From the NCBI GenBank assembly GCA_037043015.1, contig CM073322.1, positions 34,245,364-34,309,363 on the forward strand: a stretch of DNA of 64,000 nucleotides. The letters are read 5' to 3'. The notes beneath the pieces are model-generated. The model was not told the DNA's origin and made no database searches. It worked only from the letters and a program-made list of their open reading frames with translations. This document shows, piece by piece, positions 2,371-37,025 of the stretch. Each line of letters starts with the position of its first letter. Positions within the stretch are counted from its first letter, which is position 1. This DNA is from Bryum argenteum. Taxonomy: Eukaryota > Streptophyta > Bryopsida > Bryales > Bryaceae. Both the position numbers and the translations under genes were made by a program.

Positions 2371-4553
2371 GTCGCTAGTATTGGACTCAACGTGATCATT
2401 GTGCCACACAAGGCCCGACAATCCTGGAGGCGGTTCGTTGTGGTGTGATAATTAGGGCTCAGAAATCCCCGTCTAGAGGACTAGCACCAGCTTCTGCCCT
2501 CCCACTACCCAGATCACTACAACATCGCTGCCAAACCGTATCAAGTCAAACGCCTCATGCTCAGAGGAGATAGAAGTGACAACAATCGGTACTAAAGTGT
2601 GGCGCGTTCCTTATCGAACATTCGGTACCCGGTTACACTGCACCATTTGATCGAGTTGTCCCAAGACTAGATTCCTACTTTAGGTCACAGCCGCCCAAAG
2701 TGGAGCGCAAGGAGAAGGGTTCATTCCATGCGGTCCAAAGTTTATCGTTTGTGACAGGACACTTGACTCATCGTTTTGGTTCGCTTCCCCACTATTTCGT
2801 TTGGACCTAGTTCCAGGTGGTGTCAGAGTGGTATAGTACCTCGATGCTAGAGTTGCCGTCTCTCAGGGTCCCAGCTCGCACTTCGCCAAAGGAGCCCGCG
2901 CCCAACACTTGTGGTCCCACGTCCAAATCTTCATGTTGGAGGCTCCACCGCTCCAACAGCCGGTCCATGATCGCGATGTTGATGGACACCAGTCGGAGTC
3001 CCCACACAAGATAGATAACCCCCGCACGTAGTTAATTTGTATGCACCGTTGCTACACACAGAGTTGTGCAGTGCAGATATTATCCTGGCACCAAAGTTGG
3101 CACCAGGTACTAGCCTGAGAGTCGAGGGCTCAGAGCCGGAGACACCATGGAAGCAAGGCTAAGTTCGTGCGTTCCTAAACAACGAAGGGGTCAGACCTCG
3201 GGGAGAGGAGCTGAACTAGTTGACGAAGCGCGTGGTTTTGAAGTACTTAAAACTAGTGATGACCTCACAAGTGGACCCGGATTATCGTGGGGTACTGTTC
3301 CAATGCAGACGAAAGTCCAACCCCCTCCTTTGAAAGTGTGGGAATGTCAACCCCAAGTTGAGTGCCAGACGGAGTTCCTGATGTCACCAAGTAGCAATAA
3401 TGATTTGTGAAAGTCTCAGGAATCAGGGAGATGAAGTTGAATAGGTCAAACGGCCATGGGCGTGAAGATCGCTCACTCAGTTACCGACGAAATGGATGGT
3501 GTCATCTACACCGTTCACTGAATATAGTGAAGCAGAGTAGTTCGAGTTTCAACACTACATTCTAACCCTGATAATATCACACTTGTTAATATAACACCTT
3601 GGTATTATCAGCCAAAACCTTGAAACCAATTTTCTTACTGTAGAACTCCCTTGTTGTCATCACTATCACTCTTGATAATGTCAGTTTCTTTTCAGAATCC
3701 TGAATGTAACTACGACATTATCAAATTCTGATTTTTTATAAACCAATCAAATAAAAATAAATAAGATAAAAAACGAAAAAATTGCGCATGTCATGCTCAA
3801 CACAGGAGCTGTGAAGTTCGTATCAATGTGCAATTGTTGTCAACATTCATTGCCCCTCCATTTGCATTTCCCACTCTTCATGACTATTTCCCCTTCCTCC
3901 ATGACCACTCCCCGCCTCTCATATCCGTCACAAGTGTGCTCTCATTGTCGCATGAGTTATTGTACACCTCACATAACCTTGCCCCTCCACAATTTCATCT
4001 ATCTTTACACATTGCATCACCTCCTTCACCTTAAAAATGCCTTCGCAATGCTAGGTGCATGCGTTAGTTGCCTCTCTCAGCTTATAACATGTGCTTCGTT
4101 AAAAGTGCTCATAGGCATGTGCACTTTTTTTTCATTGATAATACATTTTTTATAAAAACACCTACAAAGTGGTAACTTTTGTACATGTTTGGCTTGGGAC
4201 TTATAACTTTTCTCTTGTGTACATTTTTACATGGTGTGCTATTGAACATACGATTGCTGACATTTTTGGAGGGATTTACATTTTAGAGAAATTTACAATT
4301 TCCATGAAAAGAGAGGGTAGGCATGTGCCCACCCTTCACCCTCCTCCCACACGGAAACAAAGTTTTGGTAAGCGGGCAGTAGGTATGTGCCCACCCCTCA
4401 CCCACAAAAGCAAACTCTTGATAAAAGAGTTCAATTCCAAATCCCAAATACAAGTGACCAAGTAAATCCTCAAGACCCTCAAATCTATAGAGATCGATTA
4501 ATTAGACTTGCATGATGTGACTGCTTCACTTACTACATCCTACATACATTTCG

Positions 4554-5075
4554 GTGAGGAAAAGTAAAATGGCACTTCGAGCTCCCGATCCCGATCAAAT
4601 CATACATCGAAAAAACAGAGCACCGAGGCCCCGCGTGCACACGCACAACAAGGACCGTGAAAGGCGCTTGACTGATGATGGCGAGTTCCGGGTTTACACT
4701 ACTCAATCGCCGGGAATACGAGAAACAGACTCTCGTTCAAAATCCTCAAGACCTAGACGTAGAGCAACAAACTCCGCCACGACTTTTCCAATGCGCACCC
4801 TTCATTTGAGCGGCGCTGACCTTTTCTTGTCATTGCATTGCCTCTCGAACAATTTCCAAACAGGGTATCATTATAACGCCTTCAGAAAGACTCAACGTGA
4901 CCTCGGCTTGCGAGCGGAACCCCACAAGCTGTGTCCTGTGACTACCCTACACGCACCACCAATTTACGGGCCAGTCGATGCAATGATCTCACAACAACTA
5001 CTTACGACTAAAATGACTGCAAGCGGCAGCGCACGCAAGCTGCTCCCACCAAATATTGCTAGCAGAAAAAGGTAA
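4554..5075 (+). CDS. Unrecognised 173-residue reading frame (doubtful gene)
   Basis: I do not recognise this product. The frame encodes a basic, Arg-rich N-terminal half (RPRVHTHNKDRERR, SRPRRR) and a less biased second half. It starts at the first ATG-like codon after an A+T-rich stretch and stays open through more balanced DNA. There are no clear domains, no signal peptide and no obvious membrane segment. It lies alone inside the spacer of the inverted repeat, with no visible splice partner. It may be a chance frame, an exon of an unannotated gene or decayed transposon coding sequence. Length and composition are the only support. Confidence 0.2.
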   Translation: MRKSKMALRAPDPDQIIHRKNRAPRPRVHTHNKDRERRLTDDGEFRVYTTQSPGIRETDSRSKSSRPRRRATNSATTFPMRTLHLSGADLFLSLHCLSNNFQTGYHYNAFRKTQRDLGLRAEPHKLCPVTTLHAPPIYGPVDAMISQQLLTTKMTASGSARKLLPPNIASRKR

Positions 5076-5429
5076 GGATGCCGGAACATGCTTAAGCTTG
5101 GCGTCGAATTGGGTCAGATGATCACCATACCGAGAGGGTCGTACGGCGGACAAGAAGCACTATGTTAGCCCGCGCACATGGGACTGAGGGAGGGCTGAAA
5201 CAGGGCTCTTCAGCCACCCTCAGCCTGCCGTGAGCCCTCTCCGAGGCTGACAGCGAAACGAGCTACCAGCTCAGCCCACCCCTCAGCCAAGTCGAGCGGC
5301 TCCTGCCCGACTCTCCACCAACCTGCCCAAAACCACAAAAACCAAAAGTGGCCCCTTAACTACCCCTTAACTACACTTACCCTCACCCCTTTGACCCCAC
5401 CTCTTCTCTCTTCTTTTCTTCATTATTGT

Positions 5430-5533
5430 CCCCATCCCTTTGTATTTTCCCCATCCCTTTGTATTTTCCCATCCCTTTGTATTTTCCCCATCCCTTTGTA
5501 TTTTCCCCATCCCTTTGTATTTTCCCCATCCCC
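5430..5533. repeat. 19-bp minisatellite
   Basis: Five to six head-to-tail copies of a CATCCCTTTGTATTTTCCC unit, one of them a base shorter. Overlapping frames translate to repeating Pro-Leu-Cys-Ile-Phe and are an artefact of the repeat. Confidence 0.9.
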
Positions 5534-6816
5534 TTACCTACCGATTTTTCTTATGAATCCATCATTTCTATTAGATATTTATTAGCTATTCCAAGATTTA
5601 TAAGAAATATTTTTCCTCCCTTCTTATCTAAATTTTCACTATTATTCAAAGTTCTAGTGACTTGAACCACTCTAAAGTAATATTTTTGTCATTTCATTCA
5701 ATAAACTTTGATGCAAATTTTTTTTTAAGTATTAATAAATTTCTAAAACAATACAATAAATAAAATAATCGTTAAATGATAAATTATTAACTTCTAACCA
5801 TCTTTATTGATTATTTAATAATTCAAAACGAGTTATATTCTCTAGTGGGTTTTCAATTACCCAACTCTGATATAAATATACAGGAGTAAATACTTGTGGG
5901 CGTTTTAATTGAACACCAATTTGTCAGTACGCTTAAAATTTTCAAAATTTTTTTTTTCAATAATAGGTAATTGATTCCACCAATTTATGGAAAAATCATT
6001 TATGGAATCTCGACCATACCCTCGATGAAGAAAAAATTGTTTAATTTTTTGACTTTTCTTGTTCTCTTCTTGCTCCATGAGTAACATATAATCTTCTTAG
6101 CATTTCTTCATCTATAACTAAGTTTTGACTTTAAAAACAACTCCAATCTCTCAATATTTTTTTTGTATGCTTCCAAAAAACTTATAGGGTTCTAATTGGC
6201 TGCTGTAAACCTTAAAACCACCTCCACCATGTTAATTTCTAATCCATTTGCATACACCCCTTACTTTCTTGAATCTAATTAATCTTAAGTAATTCGGGGA
6301 AAATAATTCCCTCACCCTCGCGGTCCTAAGATTTTCACCATAAATTTTTATATGACATGAAATACCTAGTAAAAAATTTATAAAGATCACTTAAACTAGG
6401 GGCTGGGGTTAAGGGGGCTTTAATAAAATTTTAAAAAAAAAATAAAAAAAAAATAAAAAAAATCCAAATAGCAGCTAAATTAAACAGGGGTAAAGAAAGG
6501 GGGGGGGGGGGGTGGGATACGGGGGCTGGGAGGATAGAGGGTTGGGATAATTAAAAGGGTAGGGAGGGGGAGCATAAGGAGGTGGGGGGGTAATCATGGG
6601 GGGAGGCTATGGGGTAATTATGGGGGGGGGCTGGGCTGATGGCGGGGGATGGCTGCCCTGCAGCCAGCTGCCGGCCCCTGCCGCAGCAGCTGCCGTGAGG
6701 CACGCCAGGGCACCTCCCAAAATTAGGAGGCCTGGCCCAGGCCCAGGCTGAGCTGAAAGTGGCCATGTGCGAGGGCCATGTGAAACCCATGCGTCAGTCA
6801 ATACGCAACCACTCAG

Positions 6817-6886
6817 GGCCCCTGTGCGACCCAGGGAAAAAGGTATTCTTCGGCCCCTGTGCGACCCAGGGAAAAAGGTATTCTTC
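6817..6886. repeat. 35-bp direct tandem duplication
   Basis: Two exact head-to-tail copies starting GGCCCCTGTGCGACCCAGGG, with period 35. There is no coding sign. Confidence 0.9.
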
Positions 6887-7170
6887 GGCCTGAGATTTTT
6901 TTTATGAGAAGCATAGACAGCCAGGTAGAAAGATTGATGGATGCGCCAGCATCCCCTAGCACAAAATTCTTGATCTGAGTGTAAGACAATGTTGCATCGC
7001 GATTGAAATGCGATTGACCAGAATAGTTTAGAGGTCCGAGACCATATCAGGATCCGACCGTAAGTTGAGTTGTGGCGAAGATACGACTGCAGAAAAAGCC
7101 CGGGAGCAGGGGAGGAAGGTGGGTGCTCACCTTGAGGTCCTCGTCACTAAGGGCTGTGCAGAAATGGGGG

Positions 7171-7419
7171 AGCGCGGAGCTGCCCGCCCACACTCGCTGC
7201 CCGGCATAAATTCGTAGAAATACGATTTTTGCATTTTTAGAGGCCCTACAATATTTTTTTTCAGATTTTGAGTTTGAAAATGGGATCTGCGACTCCAATT
7301 TACCCCGGGAGGTGTCCCATGATGACATTGGTGACATCAACAACAAAAATTTAGGGGGCAAATTTACTCCCAAATTATTTTATGGGGGACTGGGTTTTGT
7401 GGGCGGGCAGCTCCGCGCT
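7171..7419. mobile_element. Foldback MITE with 22-bp terminal inverted repeats
   Basis: Bases 7171-7192 (AGCGCGGAGCTGCCCGCCC...) are the perfect reverse complement of 7398-7419. The 249-bp interior has no coding capacity. I could not define a target-site duplication, so the superfamily is unknown. Confidence 0.7.
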
Positions 7420-7744
7420 TTACAATGGAACGAGAGGTCAGACAGGTCAAAACGATGACGACGACGAGAAATTCAATGAGGGGACGAAACGGGCTCTCTC
7501 ACCCCCTTGCACCTTCAAAGAAAGCAGCGGCAGGTTAGGTTAACCTACCTCTAAAAATTAAAAGTATAGCCGGCTCCACAAATTAGGGTAAAGTGACTGT
7601 GCAAAGGTGCTCCGAGCAAGTATAAGAGCATACGAACTCACATTTCACTTCTTTACTTGTTGGTGTGTGATGACTTGTGATAAATATTGCATGCCGTGTA
7701 GTTTTGGAAACATCTCTGTCGTTCAAATCGGGTATCCTGATGTA

Positions 7745-10700
7745 GCAACTCCGTCTGGCACTCAACTTGGGGTTGACATTCCCACGCTTTCAAAGGAGGG
7801 GGTTGGACTTTCGTCTGCATTGGAACAGTACCCCACGATAATCCGGGTCCACTTGTGAGGTCATCACTAGTTTTAAGTACTTCAAAACCACGCGCTTCGT
7901 CAACTAGTTCAGCTCTCCTCCCCCCGTGTCCGACCCCTTCGTTGTTTAGGAACGCACGAACTTAGCCTTGCTTCCATGGTGTCTCCGGCTCGAGCCCTCG
8001 ACTCTCGAGGCTAGTACCGTGCCAACTTTGGTGCCAGGATAATATCTCGCACCGCACAACTCTGTGTGTAGCAACAACGCATACAAATTAACTACGTGCG
8101 GGGTTATCTCTATCTTGTGTGGGGACTCAAGTGGTGTCCATCAACATCGCGATCATGGACCGGTTTGTTGGAGCGGTGGAGCCTCCAACATGAAGATTTG
8201 GACGTGGGACCACAAGTGTTGGGCGCGGGCTCCTTTGGCGAAGTGCGAGCTGGGACCCTGAGAGACGGCAACTCTAGCATCGAGGTACTATACCACTCTG
8301 ACACCACCTGGAACTAGGTCCAAACGAAATAGTGGGGAAGCGAACCAAAACGATGAGTCAAGTGTCCTGTCACAAACGATAAACTTTGGACCGCATGGAA
8401 TGAACCCTTCTCCTTGCGCTCCACTTTGGGCGGCTGTGACCTAAAGTAGGAATCTAGTCTTGGGACAACTCGATCAAATGGTGCAGTGTAACCGGGTACC
8501 GAATGTTCGATAAGGAACGCGCCACACTTTAGTACCGATTGTTGTCACTTCTATCTCCTCTGAGCATGAGGCGTTCCCAGCTTGATCTGGTTTGGCAGCG
8601 ATGTTGTAGTGATCTGGGTAGTGGGAGGGCAGAAGCTGGTGCTAGTCCTCTAGACGGGGATTTCTGAGCCCTAATTATCACACCACAACGAACCGCCTCC
8701 AGGATTGTCGGGCCTTGTGTGGCACAATGATCACGTTGAGTCCAATACTAGCGACCACTACAAGAAAATGGGTGTAAAACCTACTAAAGATTGACACTGA
8801 AATGTCCAAATCAACAAAAAGGCCTTCGCACCTTGGATTTCTGTCAATTTACACGGAGTTTTGTCAATTCTCACTCGTTCAAATTTTTTTGTCAATCTTT
8901 TGTCAATTTTTTTGGAATTTTTTTGGAATCTTAGGGAATATTGTTGGAATAGTTTGAAATCTTTTGGAATCTTACGGAATCTTTGGGAATCTTTTCATTA
9001 TTTTTCAGACATTGATAAAAATGCAAATTGAAAAACAAAGATGCTTTGGGGCATCATTATTTCTTCAAAAAGAAACAATTGAAAAATTTTAAAATATTTT
9101 CTAGATATAGAAAAATCCCTGCATGCAATATTGAAAAAAAAATGATTTTTTTTTTTTTAAATTGTAAAAATTATTCAAAGTCAATCAAGCAGTAAAAAAA
9201 GGCTCCAACCTCAAAAAAAAAAAAAAAAATCAAAAAAATTTGAAATTTTTTATACATATAGAAAAATACCTGCATGAAGTAGTGGAAAAAAAATTTTGAA
9301 AAAAAAATGTTTTTTTACACCGTGAAAAATATTCAAAGTATGCTGGGTAGTAAAAAAACGCCCCAGCCTCAAAAAAAAAAAAAAAATTCAAAAAAAATTG
9401 AAATTTTTTATACATATAGAAAAATACCTGCATGAAATAGTGGAAAAAAAAATTTGAAAAAAAAATAAAAAATTTACATGGCAAATTAATCGCCAATGGT
9501 TAAGTATTTGAATAAGTTACAAAATTAAACGCACATGTGCATGAACGTTTGTAAGTGTTGTGGCGGTTGAAGACATGGGTTAGGGACGAAGAGGTTGTCG
9601 GTTCAAGCCCGGGTGGCGATAGTTTGTGAAGTTCGAGGTGGGCCCCACCGGTGGCGGATAATGCGTTTTTTTTTTTTCATGGGTAGTAGAATCGTAGTTA
9701 CCTCAAGAAGCGTAAAAGTAGAAATGAAAATAAATAATAATTTCAGGTGCAGTAAACATTAACATTTACTTCCTTTAAAAAAAATCACAATCTTTGGGAA
9801 ATGGTGAAATCGTAAAAAAAAGGAGGCTTTGGAGTCCTACGTGGAAGTTTATCACCATAGTGTAATAGTGACATGGCAAGATAAATCCAACATGGCAATT
9901 ACATTAGCAACCCGTACATCCTACGTGTATTTTTCGCAGAATTGACAGCCGAATTGAGAAGGTTCTGTCAACTACATGACCGAATCAGGGTACTAAAATT
10001 GACACCACAGTTGACAGTTTTTTGTCATTTTTTTGTCAATTAAGACAACCAGCGCCTTGTAGTGGACGTAGTATCCTACCTTGAGATGCATATTGCGCGG
10101 CCCCCCGCTACAATCTCGACTTCAAACCATCGATCTCTCTATATAAAAAGATGGGGGTGGCGTGTATGTCAGATAGCTCACTACTCTTGTGAGTACGCGC
10201 CAGAGTATGCTATCTAGGTCTGAGCCAGTCGGTGTGTTAACGAATGAGATGTGCGCGTGTAGTTGAGGGTGTCCAATGTTGTATGTTGGGATGAAATGAG
10301 CTGGTGTGCACATGCAGGTAGCCGTGAAGCTGCTTCCCATGAACGGAAACTGCGAAGAGACGTGGAATAAGATAGGCAGAGAGGCTGTTGTGCTGGCGAA
10401 GGTATCCGAGCGGTGCAAGAGAACATTCCGTTTGTACGGGATCTGCGTAAAGGACGATAAGTTCTGTCTGGTGATGAAGAAGTATGTCACGTCCTTGGAG
10501 AAGAAGATCGACGAGTTTCCCGGTAACATCATGCCTGTTTTCTGGATTGGGTGGATTGGGTCCACGCTTAAACCATATTTTATTATCTCCGTTGGCGCAA
10601 AAGCATGTCTGGTGTTGAGATCAGCGAGGATGTTCATGGCGAAATGATGCACGCTCTGAGACTAGAAGTTGGCATGTGGTGTAGATCGGAAGGCACCACG

Positions 10701-11130
10701 GAAACTGTTGGAGCGATGGGCGCTTGATATATGTGAGGCAGTTGTGGAGTTGCACGCTGAGAATGTGGTGATCCGAGATTTGAAGCCCTCCAATGTCTTG
10801 CTCGATGAGTTTGACGGTGCTGTATTAGCAGATTTTGGGATTTCCCAAATGGTTGAAAGGACAATTGGCCAACGGGGAACGTCAACCGCAATTGCTGGCA
10901 CCTTTGCTTACATGTAAGGTGCACGTATAGGAATATGAACTAGGAAGAGTAAGAGAATGTCCTGGAAATGAGGTGTTCAAGGTGAGATGTGCCACGGGTG
11001 ATTAATTGTGGGGCAAATAAGCGGGCTCAACTATATAGCACTGATGAAATGCATTCTTGTGCAATTTCTTTCTATGTTTTTCAAGTCTTTTGTGTTATTG
11101 TGATAGGGCTCCAGAGATGTTTACCACAAG
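7745..11130. repeat. Right arm of the large inverted repeat
   Basis: Reverse complement of bases 1-3,380. It contains the first four exons of the kinase gene (the fourth only in part) and the second CACTA copy. The end at 11,130 is set by the window edge on the other arm, so the true arm may reach further into the kinase gene. Confidence 0.93.
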
Positions 11131-13977
11131 AGTGGCAGAGAGGTCGTGCAAAGTGGATGTGTGGTCGTTGGGATGTTTGCTGTTAGAACTTTATACCGGC
11201 AAGGCTCCATGGGAGGGATTGGATATGCAGATCATCGTGTGCCAGGTTTGATCCGAGAGCCTGTGATTCAGTCACTTAGTATGTCTTGTCGGATGTGGTA
11301 GAGAGACTACTGTAGGTAAGGCCTTGGTGAACAAAACATCTTAAAAATTTATATGTTGGTTGTGAGTCCGTCCTTGATGGATTGAGTTTGGCAATGGTTT
11401 CGAATATAATCTGCATGAACGGTTTCTTTATGTAATTTGTTCGGTCGAATGTTGGAATATCTGAGAAGATGGACAGATGTGAATGGGTAGCATGTGAAGG
11501 AAAACAACTAACCTTGGTCAAGAAGTAATTGGGTTCTGTTGATGAAGGCCTGCGATTTCCAAAAAGGTATGAGTCTGCAAATCATTGGAAGGTTTGAAGG
11601 TCCTGAAGTGGTTCTGATTAGAATGCGATAATGTTCTATCTCCGTGATTGTTTGATGTAGGTTTTCATGTTGAAGGAGCACCCAGCCATTCCCTCGGAAA
11701 TGAACCGTGATATAGCTGACGCACTGGAGCAGTGTTTTGTTTATGATCCAGCCGAAAGAGTGTCGGCAATGACAATACTGGAGGTGAATTTTTACTGATC
11801 TCGATGGCTTTGATGTCTCTTGGAGTCTGCTTCGTATCCAAAGCTCACGCGAGAGCCAATGGTCAAGGGTGCTGAGGATACAACTTTCAGATACCGAACA
11901 ATATTGGATGTTTGTGTTTTGTGCAGGCGTTGAGAAAAGCCTACCATCAAGCACCAGGAAGCTCAACAAATTTTGAAGACAAGTGTCATTTATGTTCAAG
12001 CTCTGGCACCGTAGCCATATGTTTGCAATGTACCTCAAAGCTCTCGACGCAACATGATTCACCTCGAAGTTTGGACTCCATGTACGTCTCTCGCCAGACT
12101 TTATGATTTATTTTTTTGTGAAGTGTGGCGCAGCCAGCATGAACTTGCACGTCATTTTGAATACTGAAAATGAGCTTGAGATAGCTCTTAGTTACTCTAT
12201 AATTAGCTTAGGAATCAAGCGGCTAGCATTGATGCATTCATGGAACAACATGATTCCTCCTTCATTCTTGAGGTGGTTGAACTACTTCTAACTCGACTCA
12301 TGTTATACAATAGCCTAATGTCGATATGACAGGCGTAAATATCTTCTTTTGGTCTTATAACGTAAAGGCGCTCATCACGCCTTTATACTGACCACACGCT
12401 TACTTGAATTCTACAAACAGGTCAAGAATGGAGAGCTTGGAGGGTGAAGTTTTGGAGCTGCAACAGGCACTGCAAGATGCCAAAGCCGAAGTATTTGGTT
12501 TGAAGGCGGTAAATGAGGGTCAGAAGCACGAGCTTAATGGAGCCAAGCAGATGGCCTTCAAGAAGACTTTTTTGGAAGGCAAAGTGGCCCGACTGGAGAT
12601 CAGGAATGCGCAACTATCGAACAACCTGGCTAGGCTAGAATGTGCTAAATATGAAGCAGACTCTTTGAGACTCAAAAATTCAGGAGCTGACTCTCGAGAA
12701 GGATGCTTCGGAGTGTAAAATAGTGCAGCTTTCAAGCACGAACGAAGACTTGTCAGGGCGGATCTCTGGCCTCACAACAAAAGTGTCGGCTTTAGAAGAG
12801 AAGGATTTCAAGAAGACTTATTTGGAAGGCAAAGTGGCCCGACTTGAGATCAGGAATGCGCAACTGTCGAACAACCTTGCCGGGCTAGAATGTGCTAAAT
12901 ATGAAGCAGATTCTTTGAGACTCAAAATTGAGGAGCTGACTCTCGAGAAGGATGCTTCGGAGTGTAAAATAGTGCAGCTTTCGAGCACGAACGAAGACTT
13001 GTCAGGGCGGATCTCTGGCCTTAGAGCAAAAGTGTCGGCTTTAGAAGAGAAGGATTTGTTGCAACAGTCTTTCAGGTACGTGAAAATATGACAGGAATAG
13101 AGTTATTTGTGAAGTCAGGCAAAGGTATCAGGAGGTTATATCCCTTTTCTCATTTTGAATCATAAAAATCAACCCTCCTTAGCTATTAGTCTCTATTATC
13201 TGCTTAACGAGGGAAAAGGCAGCTTAGATTTATGGGTCAGTACGACCCTTCCCTTACTCTCAAAGGGGTCTTAAACTGCTTCTAACTTGAGTTTAGAGTT
13301 CAATAAGGATTCTAGTTGTGAGGCTATTAAGTTTTTCTCATATATAAATGACTATCAGGAGTGAACAAATAGTAATATTGAAATAATACGAAGGGGTTTT
13401 GCACTGAAACCGTGTGCGTTGACGAATAAGTGAAGGGAGACGGTGTTGATTTTGTTCAAGTTTATATTGTGTTATGTTTTATTTTTCCCACACGCAGCTT
13501 GTTTGGGGAAAGTAGCTTCTTTGGGGAAAGTTCGGAAGCGAAGGCAACATCATCTTCTTCTGACGACGAGATAGTCGGTGACGACTATATCTGCAGGTAC
13601 TCAACTCATATGTTCTAAAATCGGTCCTCGCATTGCACAAAGATATGTCAACCTCCGTTGAATCAACACCCCGTAGAATATCATGTTCATCTTGTTCAAT
13701 AATATTATACTTGTGCACCGAAAATAGGTAATAGACACTCAACGTAGCATTTCATACAGCAAATAGGAAACGTCATATTCGATGGTTGATAGTAACTACA
13801 ATGTGCTTGATTTGCAGCTTATGCGACGTACTAGTGTACAAGAGTCAATTGTTTGAACACGAGATGGGCAAAAAACATCAACACAAGATGCGTACAACGG
13901 GCAATGGTTACAACACGAGATGGGCAAAAACATCAACACAAGATGAGCAAAAACATCGAATAGCGAGTGGTGAATGA
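8096..13977 (+). CDS. KEG-like protein kinase with coiled coil and C-terminal C2H2 zinc finger
   Basis: Exons by splice sites and phase: about 8096-8284, 10318-10522, 10685-10913, 11107-11245, 11661-11783, 11927-12081, 12421-13075, 13498-13596, 13818-13977 (TGA). The kinase shows GAGSFGEV, VAVK, a Glu in REAVV, IRDLKPSNVLLD (catalytic loop lacking His), ADFGIS, GTFAYM/APE split across an intron, VDVWSLG and a late ERVS arginine. CVKDDKFCLVMKKYV and AVVELHAENV resemble the kinase of plant KEG ubiquitin ligases; no RING is visible. A coiled coil follows, made of an 83-residue unit repeated twice, then a Ser/acidic linker and a U1/matrin-type finger (CSLC then H-x5-H; the first Cys sits at a splice junction). 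One extra A near 12,676 shifts frame in the first coiled-coil unit. The start is uncertain; an ATG at 8155 is out of frame. Confidence 0.82.
8756..10064 (+). mobile_element. Non-autonomous CACTA element, right-arm copy
   Basis: Starts CACTACAAGAAAATGGGTG and ends with the complement of CACTACAAGGCG. The flanking duplication is GAC (8753-8755 and 10065-10067). It is 1,309 bp against 1,304 bp in the other arm, so a few indels arose after duplication. It sits in the 2-kb intron between the glycine-loop exon and the VAVK exon of the kinase gene. It carries a Pol III B-box-like GGTTCAAGCCC at 9600-9610, probably fortuitous. Confidence 0.9.
12558..13060 (+). repeat. Tandem duplication of an 83-codon coiled-coil unit
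   Basis: Bases from about 12,558 and about 12,808 are near-identical at a spacing of 250. The natural unit is 249 bp (83 codons); the first copy has one extra A in a run of five (near 12,676). The unit encodes heptad-like text such as KVARLEIRNAQLSNNLA. The duplication is recent because few substitutions separate the units. Confidence 0.88.
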
Positions 13978-19016: not shown

Positions 19017-20405
19017 CTTTCAAAGAAGAAGACATGATACTTCTATCTACCATTTGGATTTTAGATCTAATAGTTATGTATATATAATGTTATTAGTAAA
19101 CTTGCAATGTTAAGATTATGGCCACTTTCTACACCACTAGTCACTACAAGGCTTCTTCCCTTGTCCTAAACACATCTATTTCTTGAGATTCTTGGCAAGC
19201 AATGACCTTGTACAAGGTAGAGAACAATTTCATAAAAGTTAGGCAATCTTAAGTAAAAGCAAATACATTTAGTTTAAGTCAAAGTATGGTGACCTTGTCC
19301 ACCAATGGAAGGAATAACCTACATTGTGCTCTTCAGTGCATGTATCTCTAAGTGTGTGTTGCCAAAATTTATGAAAGCTTTTTTAGTGCATTCTTTTAGT
19401 AGAGGGCTTTAAGATCCTACACTTGAAAAAGTAAACAAGTGTTACATTAGTCCCATAACATTTCATCTTGGAGAGGTAGTTTTAGGGTAGTTTTGGTAAC
19501 AAGCACCCCCGAGTCCTTTTATAGGTTGAACTACAACAAAATCATATGCCTTGTCGAATCTTTTGCAAAGACAATGCCAAATTCATTGTTCATGTGAATT
19601 CAAGTTGAACAATTTTAGCTACCTTTGCGAAAGAAGAAAGAGTTTGCATGTTGTACCAAGAATCTCTATAAAATTACACAAGAGAAAAATAGAAAATGGA
19701 GAACCATTACCAGCAGACATACAACCACCATAATTTATTTATTTTATTTTTTTTTTAAAAATTAAGAAGAAAGAAGAAGTGATATATTAGAATAGCAACC
19801 TTGTCACAATATAGGGGGCTCAAGCCGTTGGAATTTCCTGCCCACTAGCTCTAGAGTGCGAGATGATTGTAAACGATACTCAAACGAGTTAAACGGGAAT
19901 CGAACCCTAAACCACCGCTACTACACATCCATGTTTCTTCCAAACAACGTGGTGGTATGTCAATAATGTGACGACCAACAAAACCAAACCTCTACTTTTA
20001 TACAAACATAATAGCTCACTAGTTCAGGATCTTTTTTCATGTAGTGTTCACCCTGAGAGAGGTTAGTAGTCCTATACCACTGTTGTTAGGTCGTGGGGGC
20101 ATATCATGAAGGGTAGGTCGAACGGACACTTTATTTACGCCAACCCTTACGGGTCTGGTGTTCTTCGTCTTACCAAGAATCTTAGCTACATCTCTCCTCT
20201 TTAAGTTGACTGTAGAAATTTAGAGCTAGGTATGGCTGTTTTAATAACTGACAATCAGAAAAGGGGTCATTATTCTTGGTGTTTTTGCTTGAGTTTATGG
20301 ATGATAATTCCAATGTTATGCAGTCCCACTTTCATCGTATTCAATCATATTGAACTCCCGACTCGCGTACGTGTACCGACTTACCGATACTGTACGGGTT
20401 TGCAA
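19014..20405. other. Gene-poor stretch with a tRNA T-arm-like motif
   Basis: No supported gene. On the minus strand, 19907-19894 reads GGGTTCGATTCCCG, a perfect Pol III B-box/T-arm, but no matching A-box, acceptor stem or anticodon arm lies at the right distance. A tRNA-derived SINE fragment is possible but unproven. Confidence 0.4.
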
Positions 20406-20410
20406 GTAAA

Positions 20411-20708
20411 GGTAGAGGCCCTGACCCGAGGGCCTCACGCGTCGTGAGGGACCGGAGGAGCCCGGGAGGGCGCCAGCCCGGACGGGTGACGGAGGTCTCT
20501 CACGACACGTGCAGGCCCGAAGGGCGGGGCCTCTACCGGCCTAAAGCACTGCTGGAAAATTTTGTGAGCTGCCCGTGCATTTTTTTTGCACCGTGAGGAA
20601 ATCTCACGGTGCAAAAGTAAAATTGCACTGTGAGGGTATCGCAAATGGTTTCTCCCACTAGTGAGGCGGCCTGAAAAAGAAAGGGAAATTTTCCAGCAGT
20701 GCTTTAGG
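20411..20708 (+). mobile_element. Composite of two foldback elements, copy 1
   Basis: Unit A (20411-20537, 127 bp) is G+C-rich with long imperfect inverted ends starting GGTAGAGGCCC. Unit B (20540-20708, 169 bp) has ends CCTAAAGCACTGCTGGAAAA and its complement and an inner palindrome around TTGCACCGTGAG. Two bases separate A and B. The same pair with the same lengths and spacing occurs inverted at 34920-35217, so A and B moved or were duplicated as one unit. No target duplication is obvious. Confidence 0.85.
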
Positions 20709-21647
20709 CTCAGATCTGGCTACCGTGGGGTTTGCCTCTCCGCAGTCCCACGCTTGCAGCGACCTCGGACGGATTGTTCTGCCGCGTCTCGCCTACTCAG
20801 TCCTCGGCTGCCCTTGATTTCTCAACCTCAATTTTAGTTAGCCCTCCAAGGAATTGCGCTCTCTACAAGCCTTACAAGTGGCTCGATCAGGCGCTTCGCT
20901 GGACTCCTCATCGTGGATCTAGTTCGCCATTTCTACAGAAGGTACGTCGTACTCTCCGCTTGATTTTCCAACTGATAGAATTGTTGGTCGTGTGGTCGAA
21001 ATATCGTGTTCTTTCTGGAACTTGTGAATATGAATGGTTCTACGAGGTTTGCTGCGGGTTTGAGTCTCGTGGAAGGCAGTCAAGACAGTAGGATAGAGTC
21101 CTGAATTTACGACACGAAATTTGGAAGTTATGTGTGTTGAAGATTGAGAATTAAAAAAATTGAAGGATAAAACGATAGAGTACTGAATTTTCGACACTGA
21201 AGTTTGAAAGTAATCTGCATTGAATTTTGGAAGTTGGGCTGAATTGGATAGGAGCGTCTATGTGACTGTAAAGAAGTGGAGCTTTTGTAGAGTAGTATAA
21301 TGTTTTGTCAGGCGAAGAGAAGAGCTTCACAAGTAAATTTGTGCCTGCAGACTTTATACAAGCGTTGGTGTGGTTTGAATGAATCGACGGAGGTTTCTCC
21401 TTAATCTTGTGTCTTGAATGCTGGATGGCCGTGGTCTTGCAGGATTGGGAATTGAAAACTGCTGAATTACGAGCTTCCAGGGTTGCTGCTCTGAAGGATG
21501 TACAGATGCGCATTCCAAGTAACTGTTGTGCCAAAGTTCGGGTTTTAGTGGCGGTGACGTGTGTATATCTTCACTTAGGGTCTTTCTGAAATGTAAGCTT
21601 GTGAGACGGTGTTTGGTTTCACTGCACGTTTCGGTTGGAAGAACATC
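20709..21647 (+). promoter_or_regulatory. Upstream region and possible 5' exons of the fusion gene
   Basis: Balanced base composition and a good donor at about 20,941 (AGAAG/GTACGT) suggest one or more 5' untranslated or short coding exons of the gene that starts at 21,648. The overlapping frames here have no recognisable domain. I cannot place the transcription start. Confidence 0.35.
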
Positions 21648-24600
21648 ATGGCGTCCACATCGTGCCAAAGACCACACCCGGCCTGCACGGTGAGGCTGAA
21701 GCCCGTGAGAGCAGATTTGTCTCCGAACCACGTAATGGAGGAAGTGAGGAGTATATTTATGAAGAGTCGTCCTTTCGGCGCCTCCGCATCTTTCGAGGAG
21801 GTTCCGAACTCTGGTGTGCACGCCGTGGATCTTTACTTTCAGACGGCGGAGGAGGCAAACAGCTCCAAACACTTTCTCGACACCCGCCAGTTCCTCGGCC
21901 AAATAGTAAGGTGGTCAGTTCTCGACGTCTCGGATGGTTGCAAGATCCGACTGAGCCCCATCGGGCCAAGTCGTTCCAAGGACGACGTGATGCAGGAAGC
22001 GCAGAAACGTTTGTTTCGTGCTTTCCAGCCTCGTGACGCCTCCTCTGCCTTCAGGGATCCCTGGAAGCCGGATGGATTTGTGGCTGATCTGTACTACGAA
22101 ACGCCGCAGAAGGCGAAGAGCGCTCTTGTCTTCCTGCAGAACCGTACATTTTTCGACCAAGTTGTCGCAGCCAGAGTCGTTGGAGCTCGACCTAGGCTGC
22201 AAGGGGCGCCGCAGCAGGGAATCCACGGGAGCGGATCGCCACCATCTCGAGCCCCGGTTGTGAACTCCGCCGTCGTCATAGTTGTGGAGCCCGTTCGGGC
22301 ATGCCCCATCGACCAATTGCAGCCAGAAGTTCGCAGGGCATTGAAAGCTCTCGACGTACAGCATGCAAGTGAGAATTTGTGTCTAGAGCATGGATTGAAG
22401 GAGTGTGAAGATGCTTCCCGGTTCCACCGCCACTTATCGCCGTGTGTGTATCTCTATTTTAAGGATCGTAATACTGCCATCAGTGCTGCGGAGTTATTGA
22501 GCAGGGCTGGCGTGCTGCAAAATCGGCAGGTCCGTGGATTGCTGAAAGAAGACTTGGATCGCAAGGGGAGCCCAAACGATGACATTAGTCATTGCTCGAA
22601 TTCTGGTCGGAATTTGAGGGCGTGCGATGAAGCAGCCTACACTCAGTCTGGCGTGTTGTTGCACAGGTGGAATTTAATCTAATAGAACAATGCAAGTTTC
22701 ATGTGAGCTTTAATTTGAATCATTATCTTCCAGGTCTTAGTTTACAGTGATATCCATTTTAAGTTCCGAGGGGCCATCAAAAGGCCTAGCTATTGTGGTT
22801 CGAGATTGGACCTGGCTGGTCATGCTATTAGCTCATGACTCTAAGAGGGTAATGAGGCGGACATCGCCCTTGAATGAAAACAATTTCTGTTATTGATCGT
22901 AGCACTGCTCTACAGCTGAAGCTCTTTAGCTTGTTGGCATTATATTGTTGCAGCCTGTGCCTCATCGCAGACATAAGGAGAAATGGGGGGAGGTAGAGGC
23001 TCTATTGTTCCGTACTCCCTCAGGATATGCATTTTTGCAAGGCAGGCGACTGGGTGGCGAGGATACAAAACGCACGGCTTTACGCATCCTCAAAGAAAGG
23101 ACGCGTTTACAGATCGACGAGAACAAGATCGCAGGAATGGAGGTTGTGTGGTTCGGCAAGGAGACAGAAGGATAGGAGGCCGAGCGTGCTTTGTATCTTA
23201 TCGATGTCTCTCTTGCGAGTCTACCACCTGGTAGAGGTGGGTGTAATTAACCACTCTATGATCATGCAACTATTGACGAGACAAGTAGAACTCCTCCGCC
23301 GAGTAATTTGTTTTCTCGATTGCCAACCAACGTTTTGTGGTTACTGATGGCATGCTCACTTTGCTCTCTCATTACGCAAGCATAATGTAAGTGCACATAG
23401 ATTTCTCTTCATCTAGGAGCAGCTCGACCGCGGATTGCTCCTCGAGCAATGGATTACATTTTAGGCTTAGTTTCTTGACCTCATGACATTCCACTTGCAA
23501 AATTCTAATGTTTCGAGTGTGGATGCTGTGGTTGATAGAGTTCACTTGCGGCAAGGAGACGTTTGTGTGGTTGTCTTTGTCCCGCCTTGCGAAGGACTAT
23601 GCAGGGGGCCAGAGTCTTCCTCTATATCTCCCTCCCAAGCTGATCAACTGGGCCACAGAGCTTGTTCTAAGGCAGAAGCGCTTTTTTGACTTCGATAGGT
23701 TGATCAGCAGAGAATTACAAGGTGCTGAAGCTGAGAAACCGGATATTCTGAAGCTTATAGGGAAATTTAGCACACCAGTTCCAAAATTCCAAGCTACGCT
23801 TCCAACGGATTTAGTCCCACTGCCAAGGGAGCACAAGGAGTACAAAGAGTTGGAGGAGATATGGCGAAGACATGATGTTCTGGCAGGCTATCCGATCAAG
23901 CAAATCAAGAAGGTCAATGTGCCCGATCGAAGGGCGCGCTTTGAGAGTTATGTGAAGTCCCTCGGTCCTGACGGAAATGAAATCCTTCGCGTCATTCACG
24001 GGACACCTACAACAAAAGCTGCTAATAGCATAGCACGCAATGGTCCTAATATATCCCTTGCAGGCCAAAATGTTGGCAAGATACTGGGAAGTGGTTTTTA
24101 CACAGCAGCAACCCCTGTAGAACCTGTTAGAGATTATGCCACTAAATCTGGGGCAGTTTGCGTTTGCAAAGGAGCCCCTGGTAGGATGGAATATGGCGGG
24201 ATGGAGGAGTTGGACTCAAAGACAATGTTAGCAATGGGCAAGCACAGCGTAGTCAAAGGCGAAGTACATGTGTTCTTCCACCCAGATGCAATTGCGGTGG
24301 AGTATATCATAGACCATGGAGACGATGATACTATCACATTGCAAAAGATGGAAGCTGAGAAAGAGGCAGTCAGGAAACACAAAATGGCAGAGACTGAGCG
24401 GATATAAAAGAAGGAGGAGCAACTGCTGCGCCAGGAAATGGTTAATTATTTTTGCAAACAATGTTATGAAATGATGAACCGTGTGGAGAAATAGCCGAAT
24501 GAGTTGCCTATGTGGAAACGTTTGTTCCGGAGAGAGGCTCAGCAGTTTCACCAGAAGCTACCCATATATGCGAAAAAGGAGGATACCTTACGCAGTTTGG

Positions 24601-27600
24601 AAGAAAACAATGGACTTGTTCTGAAAGGAGGCACCGGAATCGGTAAGAGCATTGCGATGCGTTACGACGTAATTCTTTTGATATCTTTTGACTTTGTCTT
24701 TGCAGACTTCTCGTTTTATCACTTTGGTATGCTAATTATTCTGTAATAGACGTTAATTCTTGTGCTTGTATCACAGGCAAGTCAGTGTTAGTACCACAGT
24801 GGGTCTACGACCACTTTTTATGCACGAAGGGTTACGGCCATTGGAAGGTAGCAGTTTTGGTCCCACGACGTGCCATAGCTTAGAGCCTCGCCACCTACGT
24901 CAGTCATGTCCGTGGTGGTGAACTTGGTGGAGAAATAGGGTTGGGAATAGACGGCAATGTGAAAATGACAGGGGAATCACGGATCGTATTCATGACTTAT
25001 GGATTTTTCAGAGCAATAAGCACAAATAACAAAGACTTCGACAAATGGGGCGCAATCATTCTGGACGAGGCTCACGAGAGGAAGACTGATGCAGATTCCA
25101 TACTCCTTCGGTTGGGATCAGCGTGCAGGGCCCGAGCAAAGTTTAAGGCTATCGTGATGTCTGCTACAATTGAAGGGTCTAAGTTTGTGGATATTCTAAG
25201 GAATGGGGGCATGCCCAAAACTTGTCCCATGATTGAGGTCAAGGGAGTTACATACCCTGTGGAGGTTATCTGGTGGGATGGAGAGCCATGGACTCCAAGA
25301 CAGGATAAAGCCATCGTCAGGCTCGCCCTTGAGACGATTCGTATCTACAACCATGAACAAACAGGAAATGTTCTTGTGTTCCTGAGCACGGTTGGGGAGG
25401 TTGAAGAAATGGCTAGAGAGCTTGGTGAACTCTTGAAACATGATGCTACGGTTAAGGTGTGCTCACTGTACGCAGCTATGTCAGGTGACAGGAAGCGGTC
25501 AGTCACAAATTTTAGCAGTACTAATGGGGGACGGTTGATATGCATCTCCACCAATATTGCAGAAGCTGGCATTACCATTGCAGGTATCAGCGTCGTAATT
25601 GATACCGGTTGGGAGATGGAAGTTGTGTACGATCCAATCACAAAGTTGACAACCTCGCAACAGAGGCGCATCTCCAAGGCATCGCAGATTCAGAGAAGAG
25701 GGAAAGCGGGGCGGACCAGGCCAGGGACTTGCTATTGTATGTATTCCGAGGAAGAATTCGGTACATTCTCGGAGTACAGCATGCCGGAGATGCTCAGGTC
25801 GAATCTTGAGCAGTTCACATTGGGGATGATGGCGGCTGGATTTGACCCCTTCACGATGGACATTTTGGATAGAGACAAGGTGGAAGACAGGTTGGAGTGT
25901 GCAAAGCAACATTTACTGAAATTTGATGCCATCAGGGAAGGGACAAGTGGCAACTTCGTGATTACTGGCAAAGGAAACATGCTTGCTCGTCTTCCGATGG
26001 AGCTCAATCTGGGTCTGAGCATTATTGCAGCATCGGACAGGATTAGACCTCGTTGCAGTGCATCGGTGGCAATAGTTGCCTGCATGTTCCAGATAGCTTC
26101 GAAGGGATTGTTCAATGGCAAGCCTGGGAAAAACCAGTACAAACATCGATCTGGAGATCATATGACATATCTCGTTGTCTACGAAGCTTGGGAAGAGCAA
26201 GGTAATGACCGTTGTTCGACTCTCTATGGACTGGTTGTATGGGTTGGATACGTAGGTGGTTGTGTGCGAGTTTGCTCATGAGTCGCGTAGACGTCGTCAC
26301 TTGCTGATGATTTTCTCGTTATTCTGTTCTTGCAGGCAAGAGTGAGAAATGGTGCGATAATAATGGCATCAGTTTCGCCCTGCTTACTGCAGCCGACGCT
26401 CTCCTTGCCAAAGTACACGCAGGGATGACTGCAGCAAAGATACCAATTATTGACCCTCCTCCCGGGTCAGATAGAACGGAGGTCGTTTTACGCAGTATAT
26501 GCGCAGGACTATGCCACCAAACAGCTGTTCCTTTCAACACAACAACAACTCAGGATGGATTTCTTCTCACCCAAGACTATGACAAGAATCCAACCCTTGC
26601 AGACCTGCATCGGATGAGCTCGCTTTACAAGTCAGATGCCCCAGCCTCGCAACTTGTCGTCTTTCAAAGCAGGGCACAGAGCAAAGATGGCAAGGACCTG
26701 CTTCTTGGAGTTAGCGCCGTAGACAGGATGTGGGTTGAAGAAGCCATGAATCATGACGTGACCGGTTTGCTAGGTTTTAGAAAGGCTATGGCGGAGATGG
26801 AACGCAGAACCGAGAGCATTTCGGTAATTCCTCGCTCAGTCCCCATTTGATGATCCAGCGATGCAATTCAACTTTAAGGGGAGTCCATAATTTTTGCCTG
26901 AATCACTGGAGTCAGTGCTAGGTTGGGAATAAATCTGGTTACTTTGTGTGCAGATATGCTTCAAACAGGATGCATCGACCCAGGGATTGAGAAATGGCCA
27001 GAGAACTACACAGATTGCAGCCTTCGTGAACAATTACAAGGAGCTAAAGACGGAGTTCACCACGGTGTGTTTCAAGTTTGATGCCAATTCGCCTGACAAG
27101 CTCATGGTGAGCTTTCCCGTGGAGCTGAGGTAGAAGGTTGTAGCAAAGGTTGAGGAATGCGTAGCCGCTGTGCAGCCAGAAAGCGGGCAGATTGACGTAT
27201 CCTCTGTGAGGGAGAGGGAGATCGAGCTGTTGCTGCAGAATCTCAGAAAGGACGTGAAGGAGCATCTTGGGTCTTTCTGCACCGTGGAACCCGTTGGCGC
27301 AGCTAGTTACAAGATCACCACATTTAAGGTCTGCTTGGATGCGGTGCTGGACATTGCCCGCAGCCGGCTGGGGCTTTCCTCTCTGCGATCTGTGAAACCT
27401 ATTTTGGGTGGCGTTGAAACGGAGCGCCTTCGTGCCATTCAGTGTGGCACTAGAGACGGCATTCTCTACCAATTTGGCAGAGGCAAATTGGGCTCCTTGC
27501 TACTCCTGGCGCACGTGATCCTACGAGATACCAAGCTCTGGATCTACGGCGGATTCATACGTGACATTCTTTTCCGCGGAAATGCTCATGATGCATTGGA

Positions 27601-28328
27601 TCTTGACTTGGGAATACCGCTGCCACCAAGTACCGCCACTCCTCAGCAGTGCATGATCACATTGGTAACTTTGGCAGAGCAAAACGGAATCCACTTCAGA
27701 AGAAGTGGCAACTCCGGTGATCCCAAACTGGCAGTGAGCTACTTCAGAAGCATAGACGACACCACGGACATGGAGGTACAGGTGGTCGATTCTCATGCTT
27801 TCGCAATGGCAAATCCTGACATAGACTTCGACGTGAACAACCTGAAATTAGGGCCTGGAGCAGATGCGAAGGAGTGCGAGCTGAAGGTTCCAGTCCCTGG
27901 AATGACTGTGGAGAGTGTGATTGCCAACATTCGAAGCCAACAGCTGGTTGTGCATAAGAAGGCAAGCCTCGTCACAGCACGCATAGACAAGATGAGGGAG
28001 AGGGGATGGCGAATCTCTTATTACAATATGCTGCCAGGGCTTCAGTAAAGTGGACTCAAGGTGCTGATCACGGATAAAGAGAATGCAGGGGTGAAACCAA
28101 ATTTCAGATTGAGGCTTGGCATAATGTGTTGACTTTGCTTGCGACCGTACGTCGAGTGATCCGAACGCCCTCTTCGAACACAGGCAGAGCTTTAAGAGCG
28201 ATTTCGATGTTGCAGACATTTTCGTACCCCCGCCACCGCCGGAGTTCATCAAAGGATGCCAGAGACTTCACGCTGGTGGGCTTCACGATGTCCCAACTTG
28301 TAAGGACAACCGAATCAGAGATACCTAG
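21648..28328 (+). CDS. RRM-like / ADP-ribosyltransferase / DEAH helicase / nucleotidyltransferase fusion with in-frame TAA/TAG codons
   Basis: Exon model: 21648-22666, 22971-23236, 23605-24642, 24777-26201, 26336-26823, 26954-28060, 28188-28328. All six junctions keep phase with GT-AG sites, giving about 1,827 codons. Order: three RRM-like repeats (residues about 13-310), PARP-type transferase (about 540-690), DEAH helicase with HA2 and OB regions (about 765-1410), C-terminal nucleotidyltransferase (about 1500-1780). In-frame stops are TAG 23173, TAA 24405, TAG 24492, TAG 24881, TAG 27131 and TAA 28046; none is TGA and I see no frameshift. The flanking protein text is continuous. The start MASTSCQ is the second ATG of the frame (the other is 21609). 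Either a recent pseudogene, or a gene using readthrough, editing or recoding. If 28046 is the true end, the last exon is void. I do not know a named homologue with this domain order. Confidence 0.65.
21684..22590 (+). other. Three RRM-like repeats (N-terminal part of the fusion gene)
   Basis: Three segments of about 85-100 residues share a pattern: a beta strand (CTVRLKPV, CKIRLSPI, VVIVVEPV), a helix with a regularly spaced hydrophobic pattern, then an aromatic strand (VDLYFQT, ADLYYET, VYLYFKD), a second helix with a LL/FL-x(n)-F/V pattern and a final VR/VAAR strand. Strand-helix-strand order and the V-D-L-Y-F strand look like RNA-recognition motifs with a degenerate RNP1. The similarity between repeats shows internal duplication. 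RNA binding is inference. Confidence 0.55.
23605..24404 (+). other. PARP-type ADP-ribosyltransferase domain of the fusion gene
   Basis: The domain shows HGTPTTKAANSIARNG (nicotinamide-binding His, codon 23997), GSGFYTAA (Tyr about 35 residues later), a YATKSGA element and AVEYIIDHGD (Glu codon 24300). This His-Tyr-Glu order and the Glu-Tyr-Ile-(Ile/Val) context match the catalytic triad of PARP-type transferases, which move ADP-ribose from NAD+ to protein or nucleic-acid acceptors. No zinc finger, WGR or BRCT region is visible. The frame ends at TAA 24405 unless that codon is read through; the charged KKEEQLLRQE text continues in the same frame. Confidence 0.72.
24495..26823 (+). other. DEAH-box RNA helicase core with HA2/OB extension
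   Basis: The motifs appear in the right order. Walker A GGTGIG/KS is split by the intron at 24643-24776. Motif Ia is VLVPRRAIA-stop-SLA, with TAG at 24881. Motif II is DEAHERKTDAD, III is MSAT, V is ISTNIAEAGITI and VI is QIQRRGKAGRTRPG. A winged-helix/HA2 region follows (PEMLRSNLEQFTLGM, LPMELNLG), and the next exon carries the OB-type part (EKWCDNNGIS, QLVVFQSRAQSKDGKDL). All catalytic motifs are present, so ATP-driven RNA unwinding is expected if the protein is made. The overall look is of a cellular DEAH/DHX enzyme. Confidence 0.88.
27134..28060 (+). other. Nucleotidyltransferase-like domain, poly(A) polymerase/CCA-enzyme type
   Basis: At about codons 27540-27615 the protein reads WIYGGFIRDILFRGNAHDAL followed by DLDLGIP. 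GG-x-x-RD-x-L-x-G and a D-x-D with Leu spacing are the signature of the class II polymerase-beta-like head domain (bacterial poly(A) polymerase, CCA-adding enzyme). The two metal-binding Asp residues are present. A later MEVQVVD strand could supply the third carboxylate. The usual neck/body helices of CCA enzymes are not obvious. Nucleotide addition to RNA is inference from the family. Confidence 0.62.
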
Positions 28329-28803
28329 CATATAATTGTGTCAAGAGCTTCACCTGGGACCAAGTCTCCTCAAAATGGGGCTGAGTACGTTGGGTCACCC
28401 AAAGAGTAGGCCCATCCTTAGTCATGAAATGTAATGGTTCGACAAATGAAGGCCGACTGACAGCCTTGTTGTATAGTTCACTTAATGTATAATTCATGAA
28501 TTGTTGGCATGGGTATGCTCTTTCTCTACCCAATCAGTCGGGTCTCCTTGTTCCTCCGTATTGAAATTTCCATCTTACTAGTATTTTAGAAAACCTAACT
28601 ATATTTTCTTTCATATTGAAAATAAAATCATATCACTGATAGTATGATTATGCACGATACAAATAAAAAATGAGTAATTAATTAAATAACCTCAAGCCCC
28701 TTTTTAGTTAATGAATGGCCCATTATACAATAAGGGTTGACATTATCAAGCCAGGTATCTAAACACTTTTTGTTTAAATTTTAAATCATTATTAGGTTAT
28801 TAA

Positions 28804-35557: not shown

Positions 35558-36430
35558 TCATACCATGAAAACATTACAAACAACGTCATCCATGAGCTCA
35601 AACTTGCCGGACAGCTGACGGCAGTTCTGATACTGCTGCAGGTTCACACTCCTACGTCCCGAATTGGTCTTCAACAACTTCTTCGACGTCCCTTCCGACG
35701 CAGACAAGTCCTCCAGATCCAGGAAATTTATGTCATCGAACTTGGTCGCATCCCACGCTAATTCCACTTCTTCCAAGCTCACATAGGATTCCTCTTCGTC
35801 TTCTTGAGGAGATGATTCGCCTGTGCAATCTAGCTCCTCGCCCTCTGTTGTGCCTGACTCTGAGGCCCCACCTCTGGACCACGATGACCGCTCCCCCGTG
35901 GTGCCGGAGTGCTCGGTCTCCGCAGGTCGCTGGTGCGATTTGGGCGATAGTTGCGTTTCGTTTTTGATACTCTTGAGCTGCGCATCCAGGGATTGCGCCT
36001 TAGATGTTCCAGGCAGTGAGACGGGTGTACAGGGCTCGGCTCCTGCAGCGGCCGCGGCTGCTGCAATCTGCACATCACGAGGAGAGCGGCACTCAGGAAG
36101 TGATTTCGGTGGAGACTCCGGAAAATTTAGGGTGCCCGTGGGACCGCGCAAGCACACCACCGCGGCATCGTAAGCGCGAGCGGCCATTTCCGCAGTGGGG
36201 AATGATCCGAGCCAGATGCGCGACCTCTTGTTAGGCTCTCGAATCTCAGACACCCATTTTCCCCATTGCCGCATACGCACGCCTCGGTACTTGGGACTGA
36301 CGGCTATGCTCTCAGGCTCCTTGTGTACGGAATTCAACTCCTTCTTGACGTGCGTCAAGCAATGTCGCGGCCCTGCCCTAACTTCCGTCGCAGATCTCTG
36401 GCTTCTATTCTTCTCTACCATGGTTGTCAC
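35558..36430 (-). CDS. AP2/ERF transcription factor, DREB subfamily
   Basis: Intronless 290-residue protein ending in TGA. A single AP2 domain (about residues 48-106) runs from [19 protein letters not shown] through [20 protein letters not shown] to [12 protein letters not shown]. The Val of KWVSE and the Glu of EIREP occupy the DREB-diagnostic positions, so binding to DRE/CRT-type (CCGAC) sites is expected rather than GCC boxes. The sequence is nearest in style to groups A-4/A-5. An Ala run follows the domain, then a Ser/Glu-rich region and an acidic stretch ([11 protein letters not shown]) that could be an activation domain; no EAR repressor motif is visible. The start MTTMVEKN is the first ATG of the open frame. 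Such factors act in the nucleus in cold, drought or developmental responses. Confidence 0.93.
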
Positions 36431-37025
36431 CAGATCCTCTTCCCTTGTAAACTCACCAAGAGCCTACTAGCCCACAATGGCGAGATGGAACAAAGCCAAC
36501 CCACACAGGTGTTCAAGAAGGCACTACTTTATGTACAATGGATCGTCGCTGCAATTTACAAGAAGGAAGGAAGGAAGGAAGAGGTGCCACGCTTGATCGC
36601 AGACGCAATTGATGACCGGGAATCGAAACAGAAAGGCTTGCCAAGGATTCTACACGTGAAGGTGGAGACGAAAGATTACGCGTGAGAAAGATGAATGCTG
36701 GGTGCCGGTTGAAGGGTAGAAGAAATGTAGAAAGGAAGGGAAGTGATATTTGAAGATTGATGCTTGGAAGACAACGAGCTGAGATACTCATGAAGAAGGC
36801 GGATGCAGAGTTATAGATGGCAGTGAGGGAGCGGGGCCCGCCTGCAGCGCGAGGAGGAAGCAGGGGTGGCCGCGTGGCGCAAGCGCTAAGATCTTTCAGG
36901 ACAGAAAGAGAAAGAGATGTAATCGCTGGCTACGCTGGCTAATGGCAACGTGACGTCGCGTCCTGATCACGACATGTTCATGGTGAATTTGTCTCAACGG
37001 CTGACACTCAGGATCTCATATGCTA
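36431..37025 (-). promoter_or_regulatory. Upstream region of the DREB gene
   Basis: About 600 bases 5' of the AP2 start. It contains a short GGAA repeat (about 36,563-36,580) and no recognisable TATA box at a standard distance. No motif can be assigned with confidence. Confidence 0.35.

Follow-up and report, generated by a model that had tools for sequence, protein, structure and literature searches.

We found that a 64-kb stretch of the Bryum argenteum genome (C2:34245364-34309363 of a 258.8-Mb assembly of 25 contigs; this whole stretch is called the window below) carries on its + strand, from position 21648 onwards, what is probably a dead gene: a pseudogene that retains its introns, still sits at its native locus and derives from one gene encoding a single chain. 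The ancestral chain would have run from N-terminal repeats, possibly through a Nudix-like part, to a PARP-like transferase, a DEAH helicase with an OB part and a nucleotidyltransferase-like module. The individual parts are of known kinds, and their order is new to us. An earlier note, made from the sequence of this DNA alone, had described the same four segments as a single RNA-targeting machine; the segments, their common strand and their order are borne out by the open runs and the joined frame, whereas a working machine at this place is not supported, given four in-frame stops, with the RRM identity of the repeats unconfirmed and the PARP identity of the transferase only probable.

Gene model

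Ranked by length, the first four stop-free runs in the window (465, 361, 306 and 304 codons) are the module segments of this gene, and all of them exceed 292 codons, the maximum run in 200 random sequences simulated with a first-order model of positions 20001-28500; the fifth-longest, of 301 codons, is an AP2 gene. Joined together, six + strand segments give a frame of 1727 codons that contains, besides the terminal stop, four internal in-frame ones. The remaining two frames hold 86 and 77 stops, so that a wrong frame interrupted by chance nonsense was rejected as an explanation, and 200 shuffles gave a mean of 88 stops and a minimum of 66. The transferase module and the start of the helicase lie in a common exon frame, aside from the two stops between them, and a phase-fitting intron links the helicase to the last module. 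Seven phase-compatible exons had been proposed for the gene; three clean phase-compatible GT-AG introns are borne out (Table 1; all splice scores use rough weights typed from general knowledge), but our six-exon model keeps the four in-frame stops.

The first intron is ambiguous, with donor 22530 and acceptor 22953 giving the top score (5.7), while the alternative of donor 22667 and acceptor 22970 (score 2.7) retains more of the N-terminal part, including the tail of a possible third repeat. At the junction of exons 2 and 3 there is no good splice pair, the best one scoring 2.9 with a poor donor. At the other end, the gene had been drawn as far as 28328; we find that the frame closes at 28046, near the place where two relatives of the last module, P0029 and P0030, also stop, and no coding continuation was found in 28049-28328.

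Identity of the modules

The central module is, as judged from its sequence, certainly a DEAH helicase. PF00271 (E 6.8e-13, 49.3 bits, cut-off 23.5) and PF00270 (E 5.3e-08, 33.2 bits, cut-off 26) match above their cut-offs, a search against solved structures returned 69 distinct sequences at E up to 0.001, with DHX15 the best (7.5e-51), and NCBIfam HrpB was matched at 4.4e-59, under its cut-off. Motifs I to VI are recognisable, in a reading frame that is broken by the TAG at 24881. The description as a full DEAH helicase is accurate for the core, but the HA2 model found no match in the Pfam search of the helicase and the OB part (PF07717, OB_NTP_bind; E 0.0025, 18.4 bits) falls under its cut-off of 29.5. 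When set beside DHX15/Prp43 and HrpA/HrpB, the window chain is alike in motifs I to VI, in the DEAH box and in an OB-like part after the core, whereas it differs in the missing HA2 match, in its long branch, in the extra modules at both ends, and in a K in motif VI where at least 21 of the 22 compared helicases have R. Measured against these 22 helicases, drawn from the 28 matches of a search with the full chain (P0012, P0022 and P0025-P0028 being left out), the window helicase retains 47 of the 70 near-invariant columns and differs at the other 23. In a tree of 18 sequences the helicase sits on a long branch (1.65) with weak placement (0.625), and a search of its own genome scored 16 matches, with 33% identity for the next best. 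In plant DEAH helicases with RING/IBR parts, too, RNA-binding-like and enzymatic parts are attached to a DEAH core.

The nucleotidyltransferase-like module at the C-terminal end is real, given its relatives and its signature. The motif GGFIRD...DLDLG lies at 27548-27613, and the GG-x2-RD...DxD signature already recognised in the earlier note is common to all three sequences available (the window, P0029 and P0030). P0029 (E 3.4e-59) and P0030 (E 5.9e-57), the two matches among 2026 candidates, share 40% identity over 98% of the module; they are nearly identical in sequence and therefore count for little more than one relative. The module resembles the class II transfer RNA (tRNA) nucleotidyltransferase / poly(A) polymerase head (PF01743) in the pattern GGFxRD...DxDxG, present in the same three sequences, whereas it differs in having its own N-terminal part and in scoring below the profile cut-off (E 0.18, 12.6 bits vs 23). 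A profile of the three sequences found no match among solved structures at E up to 1, and in the 258.8-Mb genome the module has one match, the window itself. P0029 and P0030 show the last module only, and they suggest a protein family that no Pfam model matches above cut-off. Both carry the nucleotidyltransferase-type signature and have no Pfam domain listed; P0030, on a 71.8-kb contig, appears to start inside an intron.

Between the N-terminal part and the helicase lies what is probably a PARP-like ADP-ribosyltransferase, a reading that draws on motif order and on weak statistics. We take the His at 23997-23999, the Tyr at 24099-24101 and the Glu at 24261-24263, placed by motif reading, to be the His-Tyr-Glu (H-Y-E) residues, and the order HGT...GSGFYTA...GKHSV...GEVHVFF is presumably that of the PARP family. 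By motif reading, the H-Y-E motif described earlier is present, but PF00644 (PARP) gave no match in the transferase at E up to 1, nor at E up to 10, a range in which HMMER's filtering discards the majority of matches with E above about 0.1, and in this the module differs from the family. It is also absent among the 10 PF00644 matches found in the genome of B. argenteum. Upon comparison with three PARPs of the same genome, the best, L006, reached a score of 58, equalled by 1 of 2000 shuffles, and an hhalign score of 27.2 (probability 10.3; maximum of 60 shuffles 23.0), while L003 and L008 were not significant, their scores being reached by 216 and 368 of 2000 shuffles, respectively. L006 (G000:C7:16311723-16311998) is a small PARP-like frame of 131 codons (PF00644 E 1.6e-6). 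The transferase has a single match in the 258.8-Mb genome, the window itself, and none of 7135 long-protein candidates matched its region at E up to 10. Structure prediction had been suggested as a check; the fold predicted for the transferase segment from its single sequence had a mean predicted local distance difference test (pLDDT) of 35, was unusable and was set aside.

The two N-terminal repeats are genuine copies of one another, with a local score of 112 between them and a top score of 48 in 1000 shuffles, but their earlier assignment as RRM-like found no profile match, since 0 RRM families were matched over the repeats in the Pfam search and the supposed third repeat is not significant (its scores were reached by 277 and 255 of 1000 shuffles). 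A search of the repeats against solved structures gave two mitochondrial bS6 matches, neither significant (E 0.44 and 0.46). Further along, positions 23041-23109 in exon 2 resemble what we take to be a degenerate Nudix box, with G-x5-E-x7-R...E spacing. The exon 2 segment has no Pfam match to Nudix and keeps the GX5EX7REUXEEXGU box in part only, and for lack of such a match the label is a lead only.

In-frame stops and the 395-bp segment

The stops at 24405, 24492 and 24881 have no convincing intron around them. The best intron skipping the first two scores -2.9, whereas the three good introns reach 3.5 to 9.8, and the best one skipping 24881 scores 0.9 and would delete helicase sequence. The stretch 27107-27238, which holds the stop at 27131, is encoded and alignable in both P0029 and P0030. 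The stops fall between modules as well as inside them, those at 24405 and 24492 lying exactly between transferase and helicase. No internal stop is TGA, though 13 CGA and 20 TGG codons are present; because CAA and CAG codons number 67, this lack is unsurprising and carries little weight. A non-standard genetic code was rejected, since a 1082-codon open frame exists elsewhere in the genome (behind L003) and the terminal TAA stands where the relatives end.

Additionally, a 12-bp direct repeat (CGGCAAGGAGAC) occurs at 23154-23165 and 23549-23560 and nowhere else in the window, and the frame is kept when the 395-bp segment delimited by its two copies is omitted. This segment may be an insertion or an insertion scar, an unrecognised intron, or an intron born from an insertion, and it may represent a fifth lesion of the gene. 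When 23166-23548 was queried against the genome, with very common words skipped by the search, the single match was the segment itself, and a repeated transposable element was rejected for that reason.

Search for the same module order

A search with the full chain, which scored only the 7999 candidates sharing most words, returned 28 matches that were ordinary DEAH proteins or weak virus-like helicases, none of them of this order. The ordinary DEAH helicases cover at most 39% of the query, in agreement with the earlier impression that no described protein has this order. This search and that with the transferase region cover proteins of about 950-3022 residues, so that any relatives which a gene caller had broken up into single exons would escape them; given the restriction in candidates and in length, the absence of a same-order relative is not proven. 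Scans of viral contigs and of genome contigs found no relative of the tested modules, and a literature search across titles and abstract openings, with subscription papers and preprints outside it, found no paper on this module order. An RRM and a PARP in a single chain are already known from PARP10, according to the accessible part of a PARP survey (PMC4245714), in which the word 'helicase' does not appear.

Origin of the locus

A single ancestral gene is favoured by the shared transferase/helicase exon frame, by the fitting intron phases, by the common strand and by the 105 bp between these modules. Several observations weigh against a dead single-chain gene: the catalytic-type residues of the nucleotidyltransferase are in place, as is the H-Y-E set in the transferase; the low count of invariant helicase columns may reflect divergence and not decay; an intron of 132 nt at 27107-27238 would skip the stop at 27131 with a good score of 5.9; the first two stops lie exactly between modules, and nothing but the last module is seen in the relatives; and no clear frameshift is seen across the 5.2 kb of model coding sequence, where ordinary decay should bring some. 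A lack of frameshifts is not what one would usually see in a gene that died long ago, and it speaks for a recent loss.

The placement of the first two stops and the appearance of the last module alone in P0029 and P0030 would suit two or three neighbouring, partly decayed genes, with the transferase ending at 24405 and the helicase starting after 24492 (in-frame ATG at 24510). We consider this unlikely, as the gap is only 105 bp and in the same frame, the 28 codons between the stops read as continuing the preceding charged stretch, the helicase carries a stop of its own at 24881, a phase-fitting intron joins it to the last module, and the sequence upstream of P0030 looks non-coding, as though an exon follows an intron there. 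It is distinctly unlikely that the gene still works, its stops being allelic, assembly faults, or bypassed in RNA by editing or read-through. The lack of frameshifts, the kept catalytic-type residues and the restriction of internal stops to TAA and TAG would agree with a working gene, and U-to-C editing of nuclear transcripts is reported for Arabidopsis (PMC8001311); yet four such events would be required in one gene, the 12-bp-flanked segment would stay unexplained, and the missing TGA has the ordinary explanation given above. Capture from a virus or another foreign source, followed by decay, appears very improbable. Two modules, the transferase and the nucleotidyltransferase, have no kin in the genome, the helicase branch is long in a small tree, and the weakest full-chain matches, P0025-P0028, resemble giant-virus helicases in our reading, but those matches are weak (E 1e-9 to 2e-4, 14-15% of the query), the gene has at least three ordinary introns, and the viral-contig scans gave no relative of the tested modules.

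We infer a single-chain origin for the modules and, as the likeliest, the following function for that chain. The repeats would hold RNA, the helicase would open an RNA end, the last module would add nucleotides to the opened RNA 3' end, and the transferase would attach ADP-ribose to the RNA end or to a partner. In the present locus, a ribosome starting at 21648 would get no further than 24405, neither the helicase nor the last module would be made, and a transcript would probably be removed by nonsense-mediated decay. If the modules did form one chain, it would bring together activities known from separate enzymes, namely nicotinamide adenine dinucleotide (NAD)-dependent modification, the unwinding of RNA and the addition of nucleotides to 3' ends, and the single-copy relic would exemplify the loss of such a gene from a plant; a merely decayed pair of neighbours would be ordinary. 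A further proposal, which we judge unlikely, is an undescribed plant family in which one chain binds, unwinds and extends RNA and ADP-ribosylates RNA or a partner, intact in the organisms of P0029 and P0030 and lost or stop-bypassed here. Such a chain, if it exists, would be a self-contained RNA-end repair or surveillance enzyme.

Features of the window

Table 1. Positions in the window of the parts of the gene, its in-frame stops and introns, and of other features.
Feature	Position	Strand	Remark
Exon 1	21648..22529	+	open run 361 codons, 21597-22679; alternative end 22666
N-terminal repeat 1	21684..21929	+	RRM-like pattern by eye
N-terminal repeat 2	21939..22181	+	RRM-like pattern by eye
Exon 2	22954..23165	+	
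395-bp segment	23166..23560	+	includes second copy of 12-bp direct repeat CGGCAAGGAGAC
PARP-like ADP-ribosyltransferase module, probable	23561..24404	+	open run 306 codons
In-frame stop 1, TAA	24405..24407	+	no credible intron skips it
In-frame stop 2, TAG	24492..24494	+	
Helicase core start, up to motif I (GGTGIG)	24495..24642	+	same exon frame as transferase
Intron, 134 nt	24643..24776	+	splits helicase motif I; GT-AG, score 5.4, phase fits
DEAH helicase core	24777..26201	+	DEAH 25064-25075
In-frame stop 3, TAG	24881..24883	+	between helicase motifs Ia and Ib
Intron, 134 nt	26202..26335	+	GT-AG, score 9.8
Helicase C-terminal part, OB-fold-like	26336..26823	+	PF07717
Intron, 130 nt	26824..26953	+	GT-AG, score 3.5
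Nucleotidyltransferase-like module	26954..28048	+	with own N-terminal part, to terminal TAA
In-frame stop 4, TAG	27131..27133	+	relatives have sequence either side of corresponding place
TTTAGGG-type repeat	16536		
AP2 domain gene	35561-36463		E 3.2e-14
Plant DUF7798 match, weak	52361		27.1 bits vs cut-off 27, across 17 residues

The TTTAGGG-type repeat is presumably of the plant telomere type, and together with the AP2 gene it gives the window a plant-like character. Nothing in the window was matched by the Rfam or tRNA scans. Upstream of the gene, positions 1-11130 form a large inverted duplication, whose arms, 1-1463 and 9668-11130, show 100% complementarity along their 1463 nt and which has additional inward arms (98-100%); a kinase-like fragment lies within it (PK_Tyr_Ser-Thr, E 0.00022, under cut-off). 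Finally, 12557-13057 holds 2 tandem 249-bp units, 94% alike, inside an open coiled-coil-like run.

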